Virus record (IMG/VR): IMGVR_UViG_3300022074_000054
Location: 1 to 54,241 of that record
Length of the DNA stretch: 54,241 nucleotides
Source: a virus
Reading direction: 5' to 3' (one strand)
Both the position numbers and the translations under genes were made by a program. Shown here piece after piece: positions 35,199 through 48,507 of the stretch (its first letter is position 1; every line of letters begins with the position of its first letter). Below the pieces are notes generated by a model, which saw nothing but the letters and a program-made list of their open reading frames with translations, had not been told where the DNA came from and searched no databases.

Positions 35199-36737
35199 AT
35201 GTCAGTAGAAAAATTTATGGCCATATTTGATGGCCTGAAAGAAGCCCACGGCTACTTTAAGATCGAAAAAACTGCCGCCAATGGTAAGGCGCAAGGTAAG
35301 GCAGGCGTAACACGTGAACCCAGAACGAAGAAACTTTGGGAAAACCACTTGTCCGGCAAGGGCAATGGATTGGGTATCATCCCGATCAACGAAGACAACA
35401 TGTGCAAATGGGGTTGCATTGACGTGGACCAGTATCCACTCGACCACAAGCACCTTGTTGATAAGATAAGAAAGTTAAAACTACCTTTAGTAGTGTGCCG
35501 CAGCAAGTCAGGCGGTGCGCATTGTTTTCTGTTCTCAACCGAATGGGTTTCAGCAAAAGACATGCAGAAGTCTCTGCAACACATGTCCGCGGCCCTCGGC
35601 TATGGCGAGAGCGAGATATTTCCAAAACAGATTAAGCTGCACTTAGACCGTGGTGACGTTGGAAACTTTCTCAATCTGCCCTACTACGATCACGAGAACG
35701 GCCTGCGTTACGCATTCCTAGATGACGGCACATCTGCCGACTTAGATGAATTTATTGAGCTACACCAAAAGTTTGCTCAAACCCCAGAAGAAATTGTTAA
35801 GCTTCAGATAGTGGACACGGGTGAAAAAGACCTGCTGAAAGACGGTCCACCCTGTTTGCAGATACTGTGCAAGCAGCGCATTAGTGAAGGAGGCAGAAAC
35901 AATGGCCTATTCAATATCGGGGTTTACTTACGCAAGGCGTACCCAGATAGCTACGAATCGGAAATACTACGCTACAACATGGAGTACCTATCTCCGCCAT
36001 TGCCACTGCCAGAGGTCAACATAGTTGCCAAGCAGCTAGACCGCAAAGACTACGCTTACAAATGCTCTGACGCGCCAATCAACGCGCACTGCAACAAAGA
36101 ACTGTGCCGTACCCGTAAATTCGGCATAGGAGCCGCTGTAGCGGGCGCTACGATAGCAAACCTGCGGAAGTATAACTCTACCCCGCCTGTCTGGTTTATG
36201 GACGTTAACGGCGAACCACTGGAGCTAGACACGGATGCTCTGATGAGCCAACCGATGTTCCAAAAGAACTGCATGGAGCAACTGAACTTCATGCCCCGAT
36301 CCGTTGCCAAGCAGCAATGGGAAAGCCGGATCAGTACGCTCATGTCCGAAATGCGCGACAACGAAAGCGCGATCATGGAAGTGGCACAAGACGCCAGTAT
36401 TAGCGGGCAGTTTTACGATTACCTCGAAGAGTTTTGCAGCCACCTACAGCAAGCGCAGGATAAAGAAGAAATCCTGCTCCGCCGCCCATGGACCGATGAG
36501 GAGGAAGAGGTCACGTACTTCCGTCTCAAAGACTTTGAAAGCTATCTCAAAAAGAATAAGTTTTTCGAATATAAGTCTCACAAAATTGCGCAGCGTCTTC
36601 GTGATATTAATGGCGAGAGTATGGTTCTCAAGATTAAGGGTCGGTCTGTACGAGTATGGAAGATACCGGCCTTTGAAAGCGCCGACGTTGAGATAAAGTC
36701 GCCCGCCTTTGGTAACCAAGAGGAGGCTCCGTTTTGA
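35199..36737 (+). CDS. AEP-superfamily primase (prim-pol type)
   Basis: 512 residues from the ATG at 35199. The GGGGGCA element just ahead favours it over the ATG at 35187. The AEP catalytic pair DxD is at Asp75/Asp77 (CIDVDQYP). The RSKSGGAHCFLF block with His108 follows, and GNFLNLPYYD is the third motif. A Cys/His cluster (Cys289, His297, Cys298, Cys303) may bind zinc. The C-terminal third is helical, with an HTH-like part. The motif order resembles primases of TOTE-type and phage prim-pols. It should make primers for the family A polymerase. No DnaG/TOPRIM primase was found. Confidence 0.8.
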   Translation: MSVEKFMAIFDGLKEAHGYFKIEKTAANGKAQGKAGVTREPRTKKLWENHLSGKGNGLGIIPINEDNMCKWGCIDVDQYPLDHKHLVDKIRKLKLPLVVCRSKSGGAHCFLFSTEWVSAKDMQKSLQHMSAALGYGESEIFPKQIKLHLDRGDVGNFLNLPYYDHENGLRYAFLDDGTSADLDEFIELHQKFAQTPEEIVKLQIVDTGEKDLLKDGPPCLQILCKQRISEGGRNNGLFNIGVYLRKAYPDSYESEILRYNMEYLSPPLPLPEVNIVAKQLDRKDYAYKCSDAPINAHCNKELCRTRKFGIGAAVAGATIANLRKYNSTPPVWFMDVNGEPLELDTDALMSQPMFQKNCMEQLNFMPRSVAKQQWESRISTLMSEMRDNESAIMEVAQDASISGQFYDYLEEFCSHLQQAQDKEEILLRRPWTDEEEEVTYFRLKDFESYLKKNKFFEYKSHKIAQRLRDINGESMVLKIKGRSVRVWKIPAFESADVEIKSPAFGNQEEAPF

Positions 36738-36880
36738 GCAGTCTGTCGAAGCAAGACCGTGATAAAGAAATCGTTCGGCTGATTGACAAAGAACGAATGA
36801 CAATGACCGCAGTAGCCAAGCTATTCGGTATCTCAAAGCAGAGAGTGCAACAAATATACCGAAGGGAAAAAGATGTTTAG
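36734..36880 (+). CDS. 48-residue helix-turn-helix protein (sigma region 4-like)
   Basis: It starts at TTG with an AGGAGG site (36721-36726) 7 bases ahead. It overlaps the primase stop by 4 bases and the helicase start by 8. The product is charged, and the second half, MTMTAVAKLFGISKQRVQQI, is a clear HTH with recognition helix SKQRVQQIYRRE, like sigma-factor region 4. Candidates are a phage transcription regulator or an anti-sigma decoy. It is too short for most tools but the ribosome site and HTH support it. Confidence 0.72.
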   Translation: MSSLSKQDRDKEIVRLIDKERMTMTAVAKLFGISKQRVQQIYRREKDV

Positions 36881-38935: not shown

Positions 38936-40790
38936 GTGGATACCGCCGCTAGAACTGCCGGACATCACGTCAGCTAAAAAGATAGCCATCGACGTAGAAA
39001 CACGCGACCCGAACCTCAAATCAAACGGCCCCGGCTGGCCTACCGGTGACGGTGAGGTGGTGGGGTATGCCGTAGCCGTAGAAGATTGGTCGGGATACAT
39101 TCCTATCCGTCATTTTGGTGGGGGCAACCTTGATGAGAAGGTCGTCAACCGCTGGCTCAAAAAAGTATTTGAGTGTCCTGCCGATAAGATCATGCACAAC
39201 GCGCAGTATGACTTGGGCTGGATCAAAGCGATGGGCTTCCAAGTAAACGGGCGCATCATCGACACCATGGTCGTCGCGTCACTGCTGGACGAAAACCGTT
39301 TCAGCTACAGCCTGAACGCACTGGCCTACGACCATCTGGGCAAAGTTAAATCAGAGAAAGGTCTAGTGGAGGCGGCGCGGGAGTTCGGAGTCGATCCGAA
39401 AGCAGAAATGTGGAAGATGCCCGCCATGTACGTTGGACCGTATGCAGAGGGTGACGCTGAACTTACCCTCGAACTCTGGAATTACTTCTCCGTTCAACTT
39501 GGCAAAGAGGGCCTGTGGCCTATCGCTAACCTCGAACTTGACCTCCTCCCATGTCTCGTTGACATGACGATGCGGGGCGTTCGGGTAGATACGGATAAGG
39601 TCGAGCGAACTAGGGATAGCCTGCTCAAGCGGGAACGGGAAGTCGTGAAGGAGATCAAGCGCATCTGTGGCACTGATGTCGAAATCTGGGCTGCTCAGTC
39701 TCTCGCTAAAGCGTTCGATAAAGTCGGCGTCCACTACCCACGCACTGAAAAGGGCGCACCGTCGTTCACGAAACTCTTCCTCCAAGAGCATGAGCATCCC
39801 CTCGCGCAACTCGTCACCCAAGCTCGGAACCTGAACAAGACATCCGGCACTTTCATTAATACAATCATGAAACACTGCCACGCTGATGGTCGAATACATT
39901 CCCATATAAACCAAATCCGTTCCGACGATGGGGGCACGGTATCTGGACGTATCTCAATGTCCAACCCGAACCTTCAACAAATCCCGGCCCGCGACCCAGA
40001 ACTGGGACCAATGATTCGTTCGTTGTTTCTTCCAGAGGAAGGCGAACAATGGGCGGCCATTGACTTCTCGCAACAGGAACCGCGCATCTTGGTACATTAT
40101 GCGCATGTATACGGTAAAACGCGAGGCGTTGCATTGGAGGGCGCTAAAGAGTTTGTCGCTGCCTACAACGATAATCCCGACACCGACTTCCATACCATGG
40201 TGGCGGAGATGGCTAACATTCCGCGCAAGCAAGCCAAGACCATCAACCTCGGCATGATGTACGGCATGGGCGTAAACAAACTGTCCGAACAACTCGACGT
40301 GTCGGTCGAAGAAGCCAAGGGCCTGACCAAGCAATACCACGACCGCGTACCGTTCGTTAAAGGCTTGATGAACGGCGTCACCAACCGGCTGAACGAGAAA
40401 TCTTCTGGCGGCTCACTGCACTCGCTGCTGGGCCGTAAGTGCCGGTTCGATCTATGGGAGCCCGATACGTTTGCCATGAACAAGGCGCTGCCCTACCGGG
40501 AAGCCGTTGACGCCTATGGGCCCACGACCCGCCTCAAACGGGCCTACACCTACAAGGCGCTCAATCGGTTAATTCAAGCATCTGCTGCGGATATGACGAA
40601 AAAAGCGATGGTCGATCTATACAAGCAAGGCATCCTACCCATGCTTCAAATCCACGACGAAATAGCCATGTCCGTGAAAAACGTCGAGGAAGCAAACAAG
40701 GTGGCCAAGATTATGGAAACCGCGGTGCCGCTCGAAGTACCATCCAAATGCGACGTGGAGATAGGCCCGTCTTGGGGTGAGGCCAAGTGA
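38895..40790 (+). CDS. Family A DNA polymerase
   Basis: 631 residues from the ATG at 38895. 3'-5' exonuclease motifs are present: Exo I AIDVETRDPNL, Exo II HNAQYDLGWI and Exo III YAEGDAELTL. Polymerase motif A is AIDFSQQEPRI (Asp390), motif B KQAKTINLGMMYGMG, and motif C QIHDEIAMS (Asp588, Glu589). All are intact, so it should be a proofreading replicase. It lacks the CxxCxGxG zinc repeats of a DnaJ central domain, which is reported in HMO-2011-type polymerases. Motif A has QQEPR where bacterial Pol I has QIELR. A leftward nuclease gene overlaps its last 145 bases. Confidence 0.93.
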   Translation: MAKLQMSMFAPKSEWIPPLELPDITSAKKIAIDVETRDPNLKSNGPGWPTGDGEVVGYAVAVEDWSGYIPIRHFGGGNLDEKVVNRWLKKVFECPADKIMHNAQYDLGWIKAMGFQVNGRIIDTMVVASLLDENRFSYSLNALAYDHLGKVKSEKGLVEAAREFGVDPKAEMWKMPAMYVGPYAEGDAELTLELWNYFSVQLGKEGLWPIANLELDLLPCLVDMTMRGVRVDTDKVERTRDSLLKREREVVKEIKRICGTDVEIWAAQSLAKAFDKVGVHYPRTEKGAPSFTKLFLQEHEHPLAQLVTQARNLNKTSGTFINTIMKHCHADGRIHSHINQIRSDDGGTVSGRISMSNPNLQQIPARDPELGPMIRSLFLPEEGEQWAAIDFSQQEPRILVHYAHVYGKTRGVALEGAKEFVAAYNDNPDTDFHTMVAEMANIPRKQAKTINLGMMYGMGVNKLSEQLDVSVEEAKGLTKQYHDRVPFVKGLMNGVTNRLNEKSSGGSLHSLLGRKCRFDLWEPDTFAMNKALPYREAVDAYGPTTRLKRAYTYKALNRLIQASAADMTKKAMVDLYKQGILPMLQIHDEIAMSVKNVEEANKVAKIMETAVPLEVPSKCDVEIGPSWGEAK

Positions 40791-41157: not shown

Positions 41158-41206
41158 ACGACACAATAGTTAATTTTTTATAAAATTATTCTTACACGGG
41201 TTTTTC

Positions 41207-41235
41207 TTGCATTGTTGTATATCTTCTTATATTAT
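41207..41235 (+). promoter_or_regulatory. Promoter of the RHH/zinc-ribbon operon
   Basis: TTGCAT (41207-41212), 17 bases, TATTAT (41230-41235). ATATTATCCTA is shared with the replication promoter at 33724-33734, so both may be early promoters under one control. Confidence 0.7.
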
Positions 41236-41271
41236 CCTAGATATATATTCGGGGGCACGAGGAAAAAATTA

Positions 41272-41463
41272 ATGGATACAACACGCTGGAAAAGCATTCT
41301 CGTCCCGCGAGAGGTGTACGAAGACATAAAAGAGCTTTCAAAAAAGGAAGGTCGAACCATTGGCGGGCAGCTACGGCTGGTTTTCGAATGGTACATGGAG
41401 ACTTCAAATGACAGAGGCGCAAGGGACAACGGGTCAGTTCCACAAAAATCTGATAAGAAATAA
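41272..41463 (+). CDS. Ribbon-helix-helix DNA-binding protein
   Basis: 63 residues from the ATG at 41272, behind GAGG. The TTG at 41212 falls inside the promoter and is rejected. WKSILVPREVYEDIKELSKK is the ribbon plus first helix, and GRTIGGQLRLVFEWYM the second helix, as in CopG/Arc-type regulators. It probably dimerises and binds a palindromic operator, perhaps its own promoter or the palindrome at 41141. It overlaps the zinc-ribbon gene. Confidence 0.7.
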   Translation: MDTTRWKSILVPREVYEDIKELSKKEGRTIGGQLRLVFEWYMETSNDRGARDNGSVPQKSDKK

Positions 41464-41608
41464 ATGCCCGAAGTGTGAACAGACGCTCGAAGTTACAGGC
41501 AAAACCAACACCCAACTTTTTCGTAGGTGCAAGAACTGTCACCTGTCTATTGTCGATCCGCTCGACGGTGGCGAATACCCCGAAGATATTTGTGAAATAT
41601 GCGATTAA
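41408..41608 (+). CDS. Zinc-ribbon small protein
   Basis: 66 residues from the ATG at 41408. CPKC and CKNC, about 17 residues apart, form a zinc ribbon, and a further CEIC lies at the end. It overlaps the RHH gene by 56 bases and ends in ATGCGATT, which contains a GCGAT box. It could be a transcription modulator targeting RNA polymerase or a translation factor; the function is unknown. Confidence 0.6.
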   Translation: MTEAQGTTGQFHKNLIRNKCPKCEQTLEVTGKTNTQLFRRCKNCHLSIVDPLDGGEYPEDICEICD

Positions 41609-41611
41609 GTG

Positions 41612-41641
41612 TTGCTTATCCCATACCATGCGGTCTATACT
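41612..41641 (+). promoter_or_regulatory. Promoter ahead of a leader terminator
   Basis: TTGCTT (41612-41617), 18 bases, TATACT (41636-41641). Transcripts would meet the terminator at 41679-41717 before the ribosome site of the gene at 41732. Confidence 0.5.
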
Positions 41642-41678
41642 ACGCTTGAACATGGTAAGCATGTTCTCCGTAGTTGAT

Positions 41679-41717
41679 GGCCCCAGTTCGGTTGCCCCCG
41701 GCTGGGGCCATTTTTTT
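41679..41717 (+). terminator. Intrinsic terminator directly before a ribosome site
   Basis: GGCCCCAG (41679-41686) pairs perfectly with CTGGGGCC (41702-41709), followed by ATTTTTTT. The next gene's GAGG site begins 4 bases later. It ends the RHH operon or attenuates the following operon. Confidence 0.88.
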
Positions 41718-41731
41718 AGTGAGGAAAAACT

Positions 41732-41947
41732 ATGGCTGATAAAATTTTCGTAAACGGGCTGCGCGTACAAAAACCACGCGACAATGCTCCCGACTTCGTT
41801 AAGGCAAACGTAAGCATAAATCGTGCCGAACTCATCCCGTGGCTCGAATCACAGACCGGTGAGTGGGTCAATGCGCAAGTGCTGGATAGCAAAAACAAAC
41901 CCGGCACGTGGTACGTCGAAGTTGATACGTGGGAAAAGGACAAGTAG
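41732..41947 (+). CDS. Small conserved-looking protein
   Basis: 71 residues. The sequence (MADKIFVNGLRVQKPRDNAP, DFVKANVSINRAELIPWLES, EWVNAQVLDSKNKPGTWYVE) predicts a small beta-barrel, and resembles remembered phage proteins of unknown function near SSB or recombination genes. The OB-like strand pattern is only suggestive. It has GAGGAAAA upstream and is followed 2 bases later by the next gene. Confidence 0.6.
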   Translation: MADKIFVNGLRVQKPRDNAPDFVKANVSINRAELIPWLESQTGEWVNAQVLDSKNKPGTWYVEVDTWEKDK

Positions 41948-42120: not shown

Positions 42121-42175
42121 CTTTTACCTATAAAATCCCATACACTACTCCTTGTAACCCTACACGGAGAACGTT

Positions 42176-42520
42176 ATGAAAGACCTCATTACTATCGAAG
42201 AAGTGTGCCAAGTGGCACGAGTCAGCAAGCCAACCATCTACCGGAAGGTAAAGCTTGGCGAGTTTCCTGCCCCAGTCAAAGTACCAACAACCGCGACCCG
42301 CGGGCCAAAGATGGTCAACCGATGGGAAAAAGGCGCAGTCATAAACCATTGCATTCAAAACGTGCAGAAGGCAGCAACCGCCGCAGTCAATATCCCACCA
42401 GAAGACGTAGACGCCCACTGGCACACGGAACCCGAACCATGGTACGTGGAACACAAGTTTGTTCTCCAAGCCATGATTGGCGGGATGTTTGCAGCACTGG
42501 CCGTCTGGTTCTTTAAATGA
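42176..42520 (+). CDS. AlpA/excisionase-like HTH with C-terminal membrane anchor
   Basis: 114 residues. Residues 4-50 are an AlpA/MerR-type winged HTH: LITIEEVCQVARVSKPTIYR with KVKLGEFPAPVKV as the wing. Residues 92-113 (HKFVLQAMIGGMFAALAVWF) form one hydrophobic span. A DNA-binding domain tethered to the membrane would be unusual for a phage; it could localise DNA or sense membrane state. An ACGGAGAA site precedes it. No integrase is present, so a classical excisionase role is unlikely. Confidence 0.7.
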   Translation: MKDLITIEEVCQVARVSKPTIYRKVKLGEFPAPVKVPTTATRGPKMVNRWEKGAVINHCIQNVQKAATAAVNIPPEDVDAHWHTEPEPWYVEHKFVLQAMIGGMFAALAVWFFK

Positions 42521-42827: not shown

Positions 42828-42856
42828 TTGACACGTATGCGATAATATGCTAAAGT
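42828..42856 (+). promoter_or_regulatory. Promoter with GCGATA box
   Basis: TTGACA (42828-42833), 17 bases, TAAAGT (42851-42856). The spacer holds TATGCGATA (42836-42844). The leader then holds GGTTAACC and a GGGGGA/TCCCCC hairpin. It shares AATTAGCTTG with the promoter at 45820. Confidence 0.65.
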
Positions 42857-42944
42857 GCCTATATCAATCGGTTAACCCGGTCGATAGGGGGAGGGCAATT
42901 TCCCCCACGCTCTTTGACAATTTAATCAACTACGGAGAACTACG

Positions 42945-43214
42945 ATGAAGAAATTCACGTTCGAACCTTCCTATGACGCTAAAACGTTTGACAAGGAAAA
43001 CCCCAAAGAAATCGAACATCACTTCTACGGAAGCAACGCCTTTGAATGGTACACCGATGTCGATTTTCAAAAGGTCTACAACTGGTTCGCAAAGCAAGGA
43101 CACACGTTCAACATCCACTTCGTGCCCGTCCACGCTAAAGCCGACTACCAAATCGTCAACTACGTGCCACATAACGTGGACGCTCATTGGTTAGGTCAGT
43201 ACCACCCTAAGTGA
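42945..43214 (+). CDS. Small acidic/aromatic protein
   Basis: 89 residues with ACGGAGAAC upstream. Aromatic and acidic throughout (MKKFTFEPSYDAKTFDKENP, AFEWYTDVDFQKVYNWFAKQ). The end VDAHWLGQYHPK shares VDAHW with the HTH-membrane protein. It is the only gene between its own promoter and a strong terminator, so it is an independent unit. Function unknown; a host-takeover protein is a guess. Confidence 0.65.
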   Translation: MKKFTFEPSYDAKTFDKENPKEIEHHFYGSNAFEWYTDVDFQKVYNWFAKQGHTFNIHFVPVHAKADYQIVNYVPHNVDAHWLGQYHPK

Positions 43215-43221
43215 AACACGG

Positions 43222-43249
43222 CCCCCGGTCTTCGGATCGGGGGTTTTTT
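43222..43249 (+). terminator. Intrinsic terminator with UUCG tetraloop
   Basis: CCCCCGGTC-TTCG-GATCGGGGG is a 9-bp stem with one G-U pair and a stable UUCG loop, then TTTTTT. Confidence 0.95.
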
Positions 43250-43676
43250 ATGCGAGGAAGGTGACCCGCCCCCGACGTTTGATGCAGGGGTCATAACTCC
43301 CCCACTAGGAGTGAGCAAGGGCGGGCCGGGGGCCAGTATACAAGAAACACACGGGGCAGGTCGCGGGCCACGGGTCAAAGAAAGGAACGCTTCTACATAT
43401 ATAGAAGCAAAATATAAAAATAAATTTTTTCGGTAAAATAGCCGTAACCGGTGTAACCGTGTAACCAGAGCAAGTAAAGCGTTGTTATATATAGAGATTT
43501 TTAGTTACATAAGTGAAAAACAAAAAAGTAACCGTACCTGAGTTTATGTAACCAGAAGGAGCAGGATTGCGTATAAGGGGGCTAAATGATTTTTTTATTT
43601 TTTTTTAATTTCTTGCCTATATATACCAAAGGGGTTTAAGTTATGGCAAACTATCGCCAAATAACTGGAGAATTAA
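43250..43676. other. Non-coding AT-rich region with GTAACC repeats upstream of TerS
   Basis: No convincing gene. A GC-rich start (43262-43380) contains GGGCGGGCCGGGGGCC-like words. Then come a perfect hairpin GCTTCTA-CATATA-TAGAAGC (43389-43408) and five direct GTAACC words at 43444, 43453, 43461, 43528 and 43548. A run of T/A (about 43590-43625) ends it. The layout resembles an origin or a small-terminase binding site. A 13-codon frame at 43643 is not supported. Confidence 0.5.
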
Positions 43677-44300
43677 ATGCCTAGTAAATCTGTTGCTCCG
43701 CCCCAGAAGAAAAGGGTGGGAAGACCGAAAGCAACTAAAGCGCAGCCGCTCACTCGAAGACAAGAACTGTTCGTGAAAGAACTGGTATCGAAGGACGGGC
43801 AGATCACTATGCGGGAGGCAGCCGTCAATGCTGGATACCCTGTTGGATCGGCGCACACTAGGGCGTATGAATTAACCAACCCAAACATAAGCCCGCATGT
43901 TGTAGCGGCAATACAAGCTTACCGTGCAGAACTGGATGAAAAGTTTGGGGTCAACTACCAACGCCATTTACGAGACCTACAAACCATTCGTGATATGGCA
44001 TTGAACAACGGTGCGTACAGCGCAGCCGTTCAAGCAGAGTACCGACGAGGGCAAGCGCAAGGTGACATCTATGTAAGTAAGAGTGAAATCCGGACAGGCA
44101 GCATCGACAGCATGAGCAAAGATGAAGTCTTGCGGGCACTCAAGGAGATTAAACAAAGCTATGCCCCGATCACTATCGACGTTACTCCCGAAGGAGAGAG
44201 CAATTCCCAAAACCGCGACAAAGCGCGAGGCCGACTTTTGGAGGCAGATGAAGACGGGGATGGAGAAGACTGGGAGGAACTTGAAGGCAACACGGCTTGA
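43677..44300 (+). CDS. Terminase small subunit (TerS)
   Basis: 207 residues. A basic N-terminal arm (PPQKKRVGRPKATKAQPLTR) is followed by the small-terminase HTH: LTRRQELFVKELVSKDGQ, MREAAVNAGYPVGSAHTRAY. Residues 95-160 are helical and the C-terminus is very acidic. This matches the terminase_2 style DNA-recognition subunit that finds the packaging site and recruits TerL. TerL lies about 4.2 kb downstream with accessory genes between, an unusual separation. The GTAACC array directly upstream may be its target. Confidence 0.82.
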   Translation: MPSKSVAPPQKKRVGRPKATKAQPLTRRQELFVKELVSKDGQITMREAAVNAGYPVGSAHTRAYELTNPNISPHVVAAIQAYRAELDEKFGVNYQRHLRDLQTIRDMALNNGAYSAAVQAEYRRGQAQGDIYVSKSEIRTGSIDSMSKDEVLRALKEIKQSYAPITIDVTPEGESNSQNRDKARGRLLEADEDGDGEDWEELEGNTA

Positions 44301-44640
44301 AACGTGGGCGATGCCCGGTGTGCCGGATGTCGTATTGTGTGATGAGCGTGGTTACTTTCATTTTGTAGAACTCAAGGCAACCGCAGGGAACGCGGTAGAC
44401 CTGAGACCCCATCAAGTGGCGTGGCTTTCCAACCATGGGCACGGCAGCGTTTGGGTGCTGGTTAAAAAACTCAAAACAAAAAACCAACCTGAACAGCTAT
44501 ATTTGTATCGCGGAGCGGACGCGGTGGATTTGAAGATGGAAGGGTTGAAGGTTAATCCGCATTACCACATCACCAGCAAGATAGATTGGAACGAAGTTTT
44601 TTCCTTGATCTGTCCCACAACATCGCATACAATCCCATAG
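44248..44640 (+). CDS. VRR-NUC-like PD-(D/E)XK nuclease
   Basis: 130 residues from the ATG at 44248, with GGAGG close ahead. PGVPDVVL (Asp27) and FVELKAT (Glu41, Lys43) form the nuclease triad. HQVAWLSNHGHGSVWVLVKK is typical of the VRR-NUC family. It may process branched DNA before packaging. It overlaps the TerS end by 53 bases, and its 3' end contains the promoter for the next gene. Confidence 0.78.
   Translation: MKTGMEKTGRNLKATRLETWAMPGVPDVVLCDERGYFHFVELKATAGNAVDLRPHQVAWLSNHGHGSVWVLVKKLKTKNQPEQLYLYRGADAVDLKMEGLKVNPHYHITSKIDWNEVFSLICPTTSHTIP
44605..44633 (+). promoter_or_regulatory. Promoter inside the nuclease 3' end
   Basis: TTGATC (44605-44610), 17 bases, TACAAT (44628-44633). ATCGCATA (44622-44629), the reverse form of the GCGAT box, covers the -10. 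Confidence 0.6.
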
Positions 44641-44665
44641 TCAATAGAAAACTACGGAGGTTAAA

Positions 44666-44908
44666 GTGACAGTAATTGAAAAAGATCGGTTCGATGCGAG
44701 CCTGTATGACCAACGCCATGGCGGTCCGTTTGATCGCGGGGGTGCTGACTATTATTACGGGCGGAAATTTGAGCCGCACTACTACACTGGCGCGACGTAC
44801 AGCAGCGACAAAGTAGAAATGAAAGAGATGAGCGCGGAAGAAATCGCCGCGTACACTCGCGGGTATAACGCTGCCGAAGAAGATGGCACACAAAAAGACT
44901 GGGGGTAA
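44666..44908 (+). CDS. Small conserved Tyr-rich protein
   Basis: 80 residues from a GTG with ACGGAGG five bases ahead. The sequence YDQRHGGPFDRGGADYYYGR, then KFEPHYYTGATY and EEIAAYTRGYNAAEEDGTQK, is, from memory, shared by plasmid and phage proteins found near DUF932 genes. The role is unknown. Confidence 0.68.
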   Translation: MTVIEKDRFDASLYDQRHGGPFDRGGADYYYGRKFEPHYYTGATYSSDKVEMKEMSAEEIAAYTRGYNAAEEDGTQKDWG

Positions 44909-44912
44909 AGCA

Positions 44913-45002
44913 GTGGGTTTTATTGAATGGATTTATAAACTTTTATTTGGGGAAGATGCTGCCGACGATCTAAGGCCAAAGCCAAATCGGAAGCGCCGAT
45001 AA
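44913..45002 (+). CDS. 29-residue membrane-like micropeptide
   Basis: It starts at GTG four bases after the previous stop. Product: GFIEWIYKLLFGEDAADDLR then a basic end (PKPNRKRR). An amphipathic hydrophobic start with acidic middle and basic tail could associate with membrane. A terminator follows within 15 bases. Support is context only. Confidence 0.4.
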   Translation: MGFIEWIYKLLFGEDAADDLRPKPNRKRR

Positions 45003-45016
45003 AAAAGAAAAAAATT

Positions 45017-45041
45017 AGCCCGGTTGACGCTGGGCTTTTTT
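45017..45041 (+). terminator. Intrinsic terminator
   Basis: AGCCC (45017-45021) pairs with GGGCT (45032-45036), then TTTTT. The loop holds TTGACG, the -35 box of the next promoter, so promoter and terminator overlap. Confidence 0.75.
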
Positions 45042-45053
45042 ATGTCGTATAGT
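45024..45053 (+). promoter_or_regulatory. Promoter overlapping a terminator
   Basis: TTGACG (45024-45029), 18 bases, TATAGT (45048-45053), followed by TATGCGATA at 45053-45061. Confidence 0.55.
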
Positions 45054-45088
45054 ATGCGATATATCTTATACAACTACGGGGGCAAACC

Positions 45089-45802
45089 ATGTTGAAAACT
45101 GTTGAATTGAGTAGAGCCGAAAAAACTAAGGGTATCGCAGTAACCTACCGCGCTGGCGACGGGGAAAAATATGCGACATGTCCGGCAGCTTGCAAAATGA
45201 ATTGCAGCGGGAAGGGATCGCGCAAGATTGATCCGGATTATCTGGACGCACTTCTGGACGCTGTTCCGCGTAAAGGTGTTTCTTTTACCTACTCGCATTT
45301 TGATCCGCGCCAATATGGCTGGGACCGAAAGCTGGCGGAAGGTAAAACCGTTATAAATTTCTCGACCGAAAACAAAGCCGCCGCAGCCGCGTCCATTATT
45401 AATGGCGTCCCGTCGGTTACTGTTGTTTCGGATGAAAGCTGGCAGGGTAAGAAAACCCAGCCCGCCGGGTGGGACGTGAAGGTAGTAAGATGCCCCGCCG
45501 AATACCGCGCCGGGTTTAGCTGCCGCGATTGTGGAAACGGTTTGCCATTGTGCGCACGTCTTGATCGCAATTATGTGATCGGATTTACTGCGCACGGTGC
45601 GAGTAAGAAAAAAGCCGCCGATCCAGAAACCCGCGGCGGATGTTATGCCGACGGCGGAAACGTTGCATTGCATTGGCGCGATACATCAAACCAAGCCCAG
45701 CCGGATGAAACCGACGGCGAAAAGCTTTTGCGGTTTGCGAAGTCTTTACCGCCGCGCAGTATTATCCGGCACCATGTCGCGGGCGATATCGGGCTTGAAT
45801 AA
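45089..45802 (+). CDS. Cys-rich plasmid/phage protein (DUF7227-like)
   Basis: 237 residues. Cys clusters are at CPAACKMNC (near residue 31), CPAE..FSCRDCGNGLPLC (near 135-151) and GGCYADGG. Between them are FTYSHFDPRQYGWDRKLAEG and GKTVINFSTENKAAAAASII. It resembles a family I recall as DUF7227, found next to DUF932 genes on plasmids and phages. The Cys pattern suggests zinc or an Fe-S centre. The function is unknown. GGGGGCA lies just ahead of the start. Confidence 0.65.
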   Translation: MLKTVELSRAEKTKGIAVTYRAGDGEKYATCPAACKMNCSGKGSRKIDPDYLDALLDAVPRKGVSFTYSHFDPRQYGWDRKLAEGKTVINFSTENKAAAAASIINGVPSVTVVSDESWQGKKTQPAGWDVKVVRCPAEYRAGFSCRDCGNGLPLCARLDRNYVIGFTAHGASKKKAADPETRGGCYADGGNVALHWRDTSNQAQPDETDGEKLLRFAKSLPPRSIIRHHVAGDIGLE

Positions 45803-45819
45803 CTTTTCAAAATATTAGC

Positions 45820-45848
45820 TTGCGCTATATATAACTTTATGCGATATT
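45820..45848 (+). promoter_or_regulatory. Promoter of the DUF932 gene
   Basis: TTGCGC (45820-45825), 17 bases, GATATT (45843-45848). TATGCGATA at 45838-45846 overlaps the -10. Confidence 0.55.
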
Positions 45849-45850
45849 AT

Positions 45851-45887
45851 GGGGGACGGGAGCAATTCCGCCCCCGTTTTTGTTTTT
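45851..45887 (+). terminator. Leader hairpin with U-run (attenuator-like)
   Basis: GGGGG...CGG (45851-45859) pairs with CCG...CCCCC (45868-45875) around GAGCAATT, then GTTTTTGTTTTT. It lies between promoter and the ACGGAGAA ribosome site of DUF932. Confidence 0.6.
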
Positions 45888-45902
45888 ACGGAGAACAATA
45901 TT

Positions 45903-47093
45903 ATGACTTATCAAACTAACGCCTTCGCGCATGGCATCGGAAACAGCGCAGTAAGTAGCCAATGGTTTAGCCGTCCAGACGATCAAAAGTTTTTATCGTT
46001 GGATAACATGCTGGCCTTTAAAAAGAGCGACGCCCAGCGGATGACAAGCCGCACGGTTGACACTCACAAAATCCAGATTGTTGGCGAGTTCGACGAAGCA
46101 AACCCAAGCCGCGGCGATTTGAGAATTGAATATGCCGACGATAATAACCGGGACCACGTGAACACCCCAACCAATTGGAGTTTTGGCCAATTGTCCCAAC
46201 TATCGGGAGCGCCTGCCGGATACCTTAAAGACTTGCCCGCACCATTGGCGGCGGACTGTATCCAATGGGGTTTGCGTTATAACCGTGGCCGCGAACTGGT
46301 GAAGGTATACGGAAGCCAATCCGACGGCGGCGACCTACGTGCGGCGACGGGTCCAGACTATGGCCGGATTTTTGACTGGGAAATATTAGAGCCGGTTAAG
46401 AACCTAGTGGACGCCAGCGGCGGACGCTGGAAAGTGCCGGGCATGATGACGGGAAGCCGCGACGGTTTAGCCGTTTACGATCCCGACGTGCCAGTAACAA
46501 TGGAAACGACCACGCTATTCGCCAGCGACCGCGACGTTTTCGTTTTCTTAGTTGACGACCGCAACCCTATCGAAGTCGGTAAGCTGCCGAACGGCGAACC
46601 CGATTTAATGTTCCGCGGGTTTTACGCTTGGAACAGTGAAACCGGTAGCAAGACGGCGGGCATTGCCGCGATGTATCTGCGCGGGGTTTGCATGAATCGC
46701 AACCTATGGGGCGTGGAAAACTTCCAAGAAATTAAGATTAGGCACACCAAATTCGCGCCGGATCGTTTCGCGATGGAAGCCCGTCCAGCATTGGAAAGCT
46801 TTGCGCATGGATCAACCGCGACATTTGTCGAAGGTGTTCAAGCTGCCAAAGCTGCCAAGATTGCGCACGATGATGAAAGCCGCTTAGAGTTTTTAAGCAA
46901 GCGGGCCGGATTATCTGGACGCATGGCAAAAGCTGCAAACGCCCGACACTTGAAAGAAGAAGGCCGCCCAGTCGAAACGGTATGGGATGCCGCGCAAGCT
47001 ATCACCGCAATAGCGCGAGACATTCCCCACCAAGACGCCCGCATTGAAGTCGAGCGAAAAGCCGGTGCGCTGCTGGATAAGGTGGCCGCGTAA
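45903..47093 (+). CDS. DUF932 family protein
   Basis: 396 residues from the ATG at 45903. Features typical of DUF932: NWSFGQLSQLSGAPAGYLKD, LRYNRGRELVKVYG, RAATGPDYGRIFDWEILEPV, VFLVDDRNPIEVG, GFYAWNSETGSKTAGIAAMY and VCMNRNLWG. DUF932 proteins are common on plasmids and phages with no settled function; anti-defence roles have been proposed for neighbours but not shown here. It has its own promoter and leader hairpin, and the following 59-residue gene is coupled by a 1-base overlap. Confidence 0.85.
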   Translation: MTYQTNAFAHGIGNSAVSSQWFSRPDDQKFLSLDNMLAFKKSDAQRMTSRTVDTHKIQIVGEFDEANPSRGDLRIEYADDNNRDHVNTPTNWSFGQLSQLSGAPAGYLKDLPAPLAADCIQWGLRYNRGRELVKVYGSQSDGGDLRAATGPDYGRIFDWEILEPVKNLVDASGGRWKVPGMMTGSRDGLAVYDPDVPVTMETTTLFASDRDVFVFLVDDRNPIEVGKLPNGEPDLMFRGFYAWNSETGSKTAGIAAMYLRGVCMNRNLWGVENFQEIKIRHTKFAPDRFAMEARPALESFAHGSTATFVEGVQAAKAAKIAHDDESRLEFLSKRAGLSGRMAKAANARHLKEEGRPVETVWDAAQAITAIARDIPHQDARIEVERKAGALLDKVAA

Positions 47094-47272
47094 TGGTGTT
47101 TTTAAATAAAAACCAGCGGGCCGCATTGGTCCGAGTTTGGAAACGCGGCGGCCACGGGGGAATGACATATCGGCAATTTCGCGCCACTGTCCAACCCGGA
47201 CCCGGCTGCGTGTTGGTGCGTTGGTCCGGCATGTGGTTAGGTATTGAACCCGACGGATACACGCACTCATAA
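47093..47272 (+). CDS. 59-residue basic protein
   Basis: It starts at the ATG sharing a base with the DUF932 stop. Product: VFLNKNQRAALVRVWKRGGH, GGMTYRQFRATVQPGPGCVL, WSGMWLGIEPDGYTHS. Basic and aromatic, compact, no membrane span. Coupled to DUF932 and ended by a terminator. Confidence 0.65.
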   Translation: MVFLNKNQRAALVRVWKRGGHGGMTYRQFRATVQPGPGCVLVRWSGMWLGIEPDGYTHS

Positions 47273-47294
47273 CCGGCCCCGACTGCCAACCCAA

Positions 47295-47319
47295 AGCCCG
47301 CCATTGTGCGGGCTTTTTT
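47295..47319 (+). terminator. Intrinsic terminator
   Basis: AGCCCGC-CATTGT-GCGGGCT followed by TTTTT. It is nearly the same sequence as the terminator at 48005, suggesting duplication of a unit. Confidence 0.93.
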
Positions 47320-47328
47320 ATTGGGGAT

Positions 47329-47357
47329 TTACTTTTTCAAAAGTTATCGCATATAAT
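47329..47357 (+). promoter_or_regulatory. Promoter with reverse GCGATA box
   Basis: Perfect -10 TATAAT (47352-47357) with a weak -35 TTACTT 17 bases up. TATCGCATA (47345-47353) overlaps the -10. A GCGG/CCGC leader hairpin follows. Confidence 0.6.
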
Positions 47358-47404
47358 CACATACGCGGGGGCAATAAAGCCGCCGCAACTACGGAGTAAA
47401 TAAA

Positions 47405-47821
47405 ATGGAAAATGTACACACTTTAAATATACGCCCGTCCGATATCTTATTGGATCGGGTTTTTAATCCAGCGCAAGATGCGGACATTGGCGGGGCAACG
47501 CCAAAGCAATTGGCGGAAGCTTGCGGGATCATTCCCGACTTCTTTTGCCAAGCTTGTATCGAAGCGGGTGACGCCCTAACGTTGGACGCCATCGCGGCTG
47601 GTATGGATAACGCCTACCAGTTCGGCGGTTTCTGTTATCCCTTCGGCGGTACTATTGACGATCACAACGGGACGTACCAAAGCGAACATGACGACGATCC
47701 AGCATTGCCACCGCTGGCGCGTTTCATCTTCGAAGGTTTCGAGTGTTTCGTTTATGAATACGGCATCGCCGCAATTCGTGACCGTGCAACCCGTGAAACT
47801 AAGATCGCGAGGTTTGATTGA
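47405..47821 (+). CDS. Small acidic protein, unknown
   Basis: 138 residues with ACGGAG upstream. IRPSDILLDRVFNPAQDADI, then TPKQLAEACGIIPDFFCQAC and a C-terminal beta-like part (ARFIFEGFECFVYEYGIAAI). Several Cys but no zinc pattern. It is the first of two coupled genes behind their own promoter. No family recognised. Confidence 0.65.
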   Translation: MENVHTLNIRPSDILLDRVFNPAQDADIGGATPKQLAEACGIIPDFFCQACIEAGDALTLDAIAAGMDNAYQFGGFCYPFGGTIDDHNGTYQSEHDDDPALPPLARFIFEGFECFVYEYGIAAIRDRATRETKIARFD

Positions 47822-47982
47822 TGGAAGCCGAAAAGAAAACCGAAACCACGCCCGCCCAGTCGCTGCTTTTCCAATTGCAGTTTATGGGCATGATGATGAT
47901 GAGCGGACGCCAAGACGAAGCCGACGCGGCTTATGTTAAGGCGCAGAAACTCGCCCAGCAATTGGTGGACGCTGGCCACTAA
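47821..47982 (+). CDS. 53-residue helical protein
   Basis: Start overlaps the preceding stop by one base. The product has an amphipathic helix with a Met-rich core (LLFQLQFMGMMMMSGRQDEA) and a second helix (AYVKAQKLAQQLVDAGH). Unknown function; the unit ends at a terminator. Confidence 0.6.
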   Translation: MEAEKKTETTPAQSLLFQLQFMGMMMMSGRQDEADAAYVKAQKLAQQLVDAGH

Positions 47983-48004
47983 CGCCACCCCAGCGCCAAC
48001 ACTA

Positions 48005-48028
48005 AGCCCGCCCCGTGCGGGCTTTTTT
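48005..48028 (+). terminator. Intrinsic terminator
   Basis: AGCCCGC-CCCGT-GCGGGCT then TTTTTT. Confidence 0.93.
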
Positions 48029-48430
48029 ATTGCCTAGTGTTTCGCAGTTAAACAAGGCGGGCCCCGCCCCGCGCACCCTTCCCCAAACCTACGGGCCGCG
48101 ATCCCGTGGCCGTGGGCCGTGCCCCGTTGGCCGTTGGCGGCGGGCTCCGGTCCCCGATCCCTGACCCCAGCCGGTGAAAATTAAACCGCGGACGGCGCAC
48201 CGTGGCCGGTGCCAGTTATCCGGTGCCGGTTGCCTTCCATCCGCTGGCCGCTGGCCGTGATCCATCCGCCGGGATAATCGCGCAGGGTCCCCCGGCTATC
48301 GGGTCAAATGCCATGGAGCGAGAGCCAAAAACCGCGATCCGGGGCGCATGGCCCCGCGTTTACGGAGCGGAGGCTTGGGCCATGTTTCTCGCAAATATTT
48401 ATGCGTTATTTTGAATCAGAATTAACTGTC
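48029..48430. other. GC-rich non-coding region with short word repeats
   Basis: No gene with a ribosome site or plausible composition is seen. The stretch is rich in GGCC, CCGTGGCC, GGTGCC and GATCC words, for example GTGGCCGTGGGCCGTGCC and CCGCTGGCCGCTGGCCGTG. It is visibly GC-richer than its neighbours. Possible packaging or origin structure. Confidence 0.5.
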
Positions 48431-48459
48431 TTATATTTGTGCTTAAAATCGCATATAAT
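48431..48459 (+). promoter_or_regulatory. Promoter of terL
   Basis: Perfect TATAAT (48454-48459) with TTATAT (48431-48436) 17 bases up. The -10 lies inside CGCAT-ATA-ATGCG (48450-48462). Predicted start is about 48466, immediately at the first parS-like site. Confidence 0.6.
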
Positions 48460-48467
48460 GCGTGGTA

Positions 48468-48483
48468 TGTTCCACGTGGAACA
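48468..48483. promoter_or_regulatory. parS-like site 1 (TGTTCCACGTGGAACA)
   Basis: A perfect 16-bp palindrome, extended to 18 bp by flanking A/T (48467-48484). It contains GTTCCACGTGGAAC, the core I recall for pseudomonad parS. It differs at one position from the general consensus TGTTNCACGTGAAACA. Confidence 0.8.
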
Positions 48484-48491
48484 TCGCAAAT

Positions 48492-48507
48492 TGTTTCACG
48501 TGAAACA
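48492..48507. promoter_or_regulatory. parS-like site 2 (TGTTTCACGTGAAACA)
   Basis: A perfect 16-bp palindrome with an exact match to the chromosomal parS consensus TGTTNCACGTGAAACA. Its centre is 24 bp from that of site 1. It lies between the terL promoter and terL. Confidence 0.85.

Follow-up and report, generated by a model that had tools for sequence, protein, structure and literature searches.

Whether the separate units of a phage accessory region answer to one shared regulator, and to which protein, is the question raised by a 54,241-base virus record of IMG/VR (IMGVR_UViG_3300022074_000054; hereafter the window, that is, this whole stretch of DNA), in which a short sequence box recurs at promoters. 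The window encodes terminase large subunit (TerL), capsid, helicase, primase, and PolA-type polymerase genes, and its TerL shares 55-63% identity with the TerL of phage 023Pt_psg01, Pelagibacter phages HTVC027P and HTVC023P, and phage DSL-LC04. Among the window genes that were examined, which were not the full set, none encoded an integrase, and sequenced phages yielded only DUF932 fragments when searched for close DNA relatives of the accessory region. Judged from its sequence and placement, the box, TATGSGA (S = C or G), is almost certainly an operator half-site, which often comes in twos or threes spaced by one helical turn (10 bp) over host-type sigma-70 promoters. This reading is preferred because one sequence occurs in both orientations and several registers and is conserved at the same genes.

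The gene list used for the intergenic and coding counts, and later for the search of leaders, was made by hand; automatic picking of open reading frames miscalled intergenic DNA. Promoters and the RNA start were likewise assigned by hand. The initial annotation had placed TATGCGATA at 42836, 45053, and 45838 on the + strand and at 47345 on the - strand, ATCGCATA at 44622 and 48448, and TATGCGATT at 41598, and all of these coordinates proved correct. The four copies of TATGCGATA in the window, against 0.26 expected from shuffles, are all intergenic (2,963 intergenic versus 50,674 coding nt), and a second-order Markov simulation of intergenic DNA gave 0.04 for this 9-mer. TATGCGA is found in 7 intergenic and 5 coding copies (binomial 1e-6) and TATGSGA in 10 and 12 (9e-8), whereas GCGATA, which had been named as the core, is weakly enriched (5 intergenic versus 20 coding copies, p 0.01) and was rejected on this ground; the conserved core is TATGSGA. 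The boxes are not equally dense in coding DNA and, as far as sequence can tell, they are real, beyond chance, and are conserved regulatory sites.

The description of the boxes as single copies was incomplete, since copies recur 10 bp apart. In the window, pairs lie at 42836/42846, 45838/45848, and 47347/47357 and a triplet at 44613/44623/44633; allowing at most one mismatch, there are six pairs with a lag of 10 bp, including one at 39890 within coding DNA, whereas lags of 8, 9, 11, and 12 bp have none. The same spacing dominates a set of 241 non-redundant box contexts from the window and its relatives, where a second box on the same strand (at most one mismatch) stands at +10 in 42 contexts and at -10 in 26, against 0.8 and 0.6 in shuffled flanks. 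A box at +20 is present in 11 of these contexts and one on the opposite strand at +21 in 21, while nearly all other offsets hold 0-3. Inverted pairs occur at both +21 and +11, the +21 peak being chiefly the pair TATGCGATTAAGTGTTGCTTATCCCATAC. The conserved sites are restricted to 41.6-48.5 kb, in both orientations; an extra intergenic TATGCGA lies at 2822-2828, 14 nt 5' of the start codon at 2836.

The boxes are kept in relatives upstream of the same genes, as scored in non-redundant 120-bp upstream regions (Table 1), with shuffles expecting fewer than one exact TATGSGA for each gene. Redundancy was reduced through similarity thresholds and not through a tree, and loci collected through different genes overlap. 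Among the 80 relatives collected for the DUF932 gene, the promoter is strongly conserved and the box is usually repeated at 10 bp (TTGCAA-GG-TATGCGA-AAT-TATGCGA-CATT in L026), whereas relatives of gene 47405 carry the boxes in the other orientation (TCGCATA-TAA-TCCCATA upstream). The exact box is absent or rare upstream of terS (0/18), g42517 (1/23), the ribbon-helix-helix (RHH) gene (1/29), g47093 (2/11), and g47821 (0/4). The copy at 41598 had been described as a degenerate one that ends the zinc-ribbon gene. It is instead conserved and has an inverted partner 21 bp further along, so that the two flank the -35 of a small RNA (sRNA) promoter; the opposite-strand peak is mainly TATGCGATTAAGTGTTGCTTATCCCATAC and, therefore, this copy is part of a real promoter. 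Given the overlap of the boxes with the polymerase site, repression appears somewhat more probable than activation.

That one regulator controls these units together, as originally suggested, best accounts for boxes that are enriched in intergenic DNA and conserved at the same genes. Two proteins had been put forward as this regulator, an RHH protein and a 48-residue helix-turn-helix (HTH) protein, of which the former fits by its co-occurrence with the boxes and by a nearly invariant, putatively DNA-contacting strand, and the latter is unlikely, since a gene at the equivalent position exists in DSL-LC04, a genome without boxes. This 48-residue protein, encoded at 36734-36880 between the primase and helicase genes, resembles sigma-70 region 4, and the DSL-LC04 gene at the same position is annotated 'RNA polymerase sigma-G factor'. 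Pfam RHH_5 was found in 13 of the 13 relatives that were scanned (best E 3.5e-6), the window copy scoring 21.5 bits against a cut-off of 26. The AlphaFold2 (AF2) model shows an extended segment (residues 1-12) followed by helices 13-26 and 30-48, and its top Foldseek matches are mostly RHH proteins (Arc, CopG, AmrZ), none of them significant (E of at least 0.16). Sequence comparison with PDB gave no significant match. The loci hold 44 distinct RHH sequences, in which the N-terminus (MDTTRWKSILVP / MDTTRWKSILVPRE) is nearly invariant. No homologue was found by tblastn in phage records, and a host search of bacterial genomes returned one partial match, in a Rickettsiales metagenome-assembled contig without arrays.

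The distribution of the protein follows that of the arrays. In a set of 50 whole records, arrays are present in 17 of the 18 that encode the RHH protein; the exception, G019, has the gene about 2.3 kb from the record end, and the record probably stops short of the box region. Among the 32 RHH-negative records, 29 lack arrays, including records of 50-90 kb and three complete phages, and the other three are 15-25 kb fragments of close relatives. RHH repressors such as P22 Arc and Mnt, MetJ, omega, and CopG are small proteins that bind neighbouring sub-sites at promoters cooperatively, with sites of 8 bp for MetJ and 7 bp for omega and inverted half-sites for Arc; to our knowledge, 10-bp asymmetric direct repeats are the site of none of these repressors. 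The phage RHH protein is rather probably the binder of the arrays, and there is a fair probability that the boxes are its operator sites; it is the best candidate because the boxes remain the same in relatives in which its AlpA-like competitor has been lost or replaced. Several observations weigh against this assignment. The co-occurrence is confounded by common descent, and 157 of the 241 box contexts have no second box at 10 bp even when two mismatches are allowed. RHH dimers are symmetric, a property that the half-site does not clearly share, and excisionase-type winged helix-turn-helix (wHTH) proteins are the textbook case of binding to direct repeats spaced by one turn. Moreover, the promoter of the RHH gene itself holds degenerate boxes only, being exact in 1 of 29 relatives, so that autoregulation is weakly supported. 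In relatives this promoter (41205-41260) is strongly conserved as approximately CTTGCATTCTTGTATATCTTCCTATATTATCGTAGATA, with possible degenerate boxes spaced by 10 bp (TCCTATA, TCGTAGA).

The competitor of the RHH protein is the AlpA/excisionase-type protein encoded at 42176, which would bind the arrays as monomers arranged head to tail along direct repeats with a spacing of one turn. Such binding is known from recombination directionality factors, as in phage 186 Apl, with repeats of 10-11 bp (PMC7498355), and from BldC, which binds head-to-tail on 9-bp direct repeats (PMC5859096). The profile of the protein is AlpA/excisionase-like, its fold is MerR/BldC/Xis-like (Foldseek, not significant by E-value), and boxes stand at its own promoter in 18 of 19 relatives. 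Yet the protein is not present wherever the sites are: it was not found in G003, an incomplete record in which its absence is not proven, and the boxes and the RHH strand are kept there, while in G017 and G009 it is replaced by an unrelated wHTH protein with the same boxes and the same RHH strand. The inverted pairs at +21 and +11 also fit poorly with head-to-tail monomers, and this protein is an unlikely binder of the arrays. It has a conserved terminal hydrophobic helix (residues 94-113 of the AF2 model) that looks like a membrane anchor, and the unrelated winged-helix replacements in L055 and L180 likewise end in a hydrophobic segment. A host transcription factor, whose operator the phage would have borrowed, is a further candidate, since many promoters are affected and related pelagiphage-like genomes, perhaps with other hosts, lack arrays; however, the arrays track a phage-encoded DNA-binding protein, which makes a host factor quite improbable. 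That the boxes are core-promoter sequence only, an extended -10 (TATGC plus the -10 hexamer) read by host or phage-modified RNA polymerase, is largely refuted and very improbable: in the + orientation the box does read in this way (TATGC + GANATT about 17 bp from TTGC/TTGACA), but the same box in the - orientation gives TCSCA-TATAAT without a TG motif, other boxes are placed within the spacer, 5' of the -35, and around +1, with a varying register to -10 and -35 and in three-box arrays, and terS and other promoters of the same phages have no boxes.

The operators have counterparts in known systems. As with phage 186 Apl, which represses both promoters, and other excisionase-type regulators (PMC7498355), phage promoters are overlaid by direct repeats with a spacing of one helical turn, but here the sites extend over about eight separate units, in both orientations and with inverted pairs, and they track the RHH protein better than an excisionase-like one. 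The BldC arrays of Streptomyces are similar in the variable number of direct repeats at promoters (PMC5859096), although the BldC unit is 9 bp with another sequence and the BldC-like protein here does not track the boxes in all relatives. Stoperators of the mycobacteriophage L5 type are similar in that one phage regulator has many genomic sites (PMC9283540, PMC6550527), whereas the conserved sites here are promoter-bound, tandem, in both orientations, and confined to one region instead of being spread through the genome.

The same operators appear to control an sRNA at about 41648-41716, which has its own promoter and an intrinsic terminator by sequence and fold, and which very likely exists as a transcript. 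The element is present in 44 distinct versions, 28 of them non-redundant, and folds at -35.3 kcal/mol (z -4.7). In 39 distinct sequences, 90% of cells pair and 13 of 18 pairs show two-sided changes, a level reached in 0 of 500 shuffles and destroyed when the pairing partners are slid, although the alignment was fitted to the structure, which biases this count upward. Strong matches to the sRNA model are confined to RHH-positive records, 17 of the 18 having one, and a match to the pattern in the isolate-derived L417, which has no homologous genes, was taken as chance. Rfam covariance models searched against 41648-41716 with E up to 1 gave no matching family.

The conserved unpaired segment of the sRNA, CUCCGUAGUUGA, is complementary to the extended Shine-Dalgarno sequence of five genes, all of them box genes named in the initial annotation. 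Among the 63 genes of the hand-made list, exactly these five have a match of at least 7 nt to TCAACTACGGAG just 5' of the start codon (Table 1), and no other gene exceeds 6 nt. The window contains three + strand copies of CTACGGAG and one on the - strand, the latter being the sRNA, and none of 500 permuted seeds pairs as well with its best five leaders; when leaders are ranked by duplex energy, however, that of 45903 comes only ninth. A second motif of the target leaders, GGGCAA, is the complement of the terminator loop UUGCCC and forms the loop of a stem of at least 5 bp in 15 of 19 non-redundant leaders of relatives, against 22 of 314 GGGCAA copies elsewhere. Seed and loop are 18 nt apart in the sRNA, and in the leaders the two motifs are mostly separated by 14-21 nt, with gaps up to 39. 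The sRNA model also gives weak matches on the antisense strand of leaders, with exact antisense matches in L394, L060, and L389, and, therefore, the sRNA resembles the antisense of its target leaders. Counting the antisense copy in the sRNA, AACTACGGAG is found in 18 of 20 array-bearing records, G003 and G021 being the two without it. Among the array-free records, G019 has it solely as the sRNA, DSL-LC04 has one copy, and the remaining 28 have none. In G003, boxes and RHH protein are retained but there is neither an sRNA match nor AACTACGGAG, and in the L048 clade the seed is changed to CUCUAUAG, with no CTAYGGAG in L048 or L049. Covariation of seed and leader beyond CUCCGUAG was rejected: the changed flanks of the L173 clade (GTAGAAG) are not mirrored in its leaders and, therefore, the 8-nt core CUCCGUAG is supported and finer co-evolution is not.

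These matches make it likely that the sRNA pairs in trans with the leaders. Against such pairing stand one AACTACGGAG in DSL-LC04, a genome without the sRNA, and the L163 clade, which retains the seed although its short contigs show no CTACGGAG leader. The position of the sRNA terminator directly before g41732 (41732-41947), an arrangement found in the relatives seen, also counts against it, since the element could be a cis-acting attenuator of this gene in place of a trans-acting sRNA. This possibility, which concerns the RNA layer only, is doubtful, because the leader of g41732, unlike five others, shows no complementarity to the seed, and because the target leaders carry two distinct motifs, one matched by the seed and one by the terminator loop, at a spacing similar to that in the sRNA. 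The gene g41732 may be expressed by read-through. Small RNAs that mask Shine-Dalgarno sequences or act through kissing loops, such as OxyS on fhlA and the C-rich-loop sRNAs of S. aureus, have their own promoter and terminator, an unpaired seed, and a loop complementary to the target. Phage-derived sRNAs (reviewed in PMC12197685) are likewise comparable; unlike these known sRNAs, the one in the window is phage-encoded and aimed at several leaders of its own phage, with two motifs matched, and it is not in Rfam.

Table 1. Coordinates of the boxes, the sRNA, its predicted target leaders, and the candidate binding proteins in the window.
Feature	Position	Strand	Remarks
RHH protein, 63 aa, lead candidate binder	41272..41463	+	Pfam RHH_5, AF2, Foldseek, conserved N-terminus
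Box TATGCGA	41598..41604	+	Upstream arm of inverted pair at sRNA promoter; overlaps zinc-ribbon gene end; +21 inverted pair conserved in relatives; exact TATGSGA at sRNA/g41732 promoter in 8/11 relatives
Box TATGGGA (TCCCATA on +)	41619..41625	-	Downstream arm of inverted pair
sRNA promoter	41612..41641	+	TTGCTT (41612-41617), 18-bp spacer, TATACT (41636-41641); from sequence; conserved in 28 non-redundant relatives
sRNA	about 41648..41716	+	Hairpin 1, unpaired CUCCGUAGUUGA (41666-41677), terminator hairpin with 6-nt loop UUGCCC (41692-41697), U-run
Box TATGGGA (42136-42142) and degenerate copy 10 bp off	42126..42142	-	alpA-like gene promoter; missed by the initial annotation; exact box in 18/19 relatives, tandem pair in 12/19
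AlpA/excisionase-type winged-helix protein with C-terminal hydrophobic helix	42176..42520	+	Pfam HTH_17; TIGR01764; AF2/Foldseek MerR/BldC/Xis-like
Tandem boxes TATGCGA-TAA-TATGCTA	42836..42852	+	Gene 42945 promoter, between TTGACA and TAAAGT; one relative (L079), also with two boxes upstream
Leader CTACGGAG, gene 42945	42930..42937	+	12-nt match to TCAACTACGGAG; apical GGGCAA hairpin at 42893
Three tandem boxes (TCCCACA-ACA-TCGCATA-CAA-TCCCATA on +)	44613..44639	-	Over spacer, -10, and +1 of gene 44666; exact box and tandem pair in 4/4 non-redundant relatives
Leader CTACGGAG, gene 44666	44652..44659	+	10-nt match
Box TATGCGA	45053..45059	+	Promoter of DUF7227 gene (45089); exact box in 25/29 relatives
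Leader CTACGGGGGCAA, DUF7227 gene	45074..45085	+	9-nt match; holds both sRNA-complementary motifs
Tandem boxes TATGCGA-TAT-TATGGGG	45838..45854	+	Promoter of DUF932 gene (45903); exact TATGSGA in 24/27 and tandem pair in 24/27 non-redundant relatives
Leader TACGGAG, DUF932 gene	45887..45893	+	7-nt match
Tandem boxes (TCGCATA-TAA-TCACATA on +)	47347..47363	-	Gene 47405 promoter, around TATAAT; exact TATGSGA in 17/20 relatives, tandem pair in 15/20
Leader CTACGGAG, gene 47405	47389..47396	+	11-nt match; GGGCAA at 47369
Box TATGCGA beside TATAAT	48449..48455	-	terL (48545) promoter region; exact box in 9/9 relatives

Two perfect palindromes lie upstream of terL, TGTTCCACGTGGAACA at 48468-48483 and TGTTTCACGTGAAACA at 48492-48507, and one or two such palindromes recur 5' of terL in most relatives having the upstream region. 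The second, TGTTTCACGTGAAACA, corresponds to the canonical chromosomal ParB parS site; a ParB gene was not seen in the window, where no search for ParB was made.

The operator and RNA layers can be joined in one proposed circuit. The RHH protein would bind the arrays, probably cooperatively as adjacent dimers, and once bound would keep RNA polymerase off the promoters, so that its release would let the units 41648 (sRNA), 42176, 42945, 44666, 45089, 45903, 47405, and terL fire together. The sRNA, made from the same control group, would then base-pair with five leaders in this group: the unpaired CUCCGUAG would cover the Shine-Dalgarno sequence, the UUGCCC loop would kiss the GGGCAA loop, and translation would be damped; the operator layer and the sRNA layer together would form an incoherent feed-forward loop. 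The full two-layer regulon, with RHH-bound 10-bp arrays on about eight promoters and an sRNA under the same operators pairing with most of the transcripts, is put forward tentatively, as a possibility of somewhat less than even weight. No description of the box, the sRNA, or such a two-layer circuit was found in the open-access literature, to which the search was confined. Gene regulation in uncultivated marine phages of this kind is almost unknown, and the analysis supplies a defined operator, a named candidate regulator, and an sRNA with predicted targets. If the proposal is true, joint control by a shared operator and a phage sRNA acting on several leaders of its own phage would represent a new kind of circuit.

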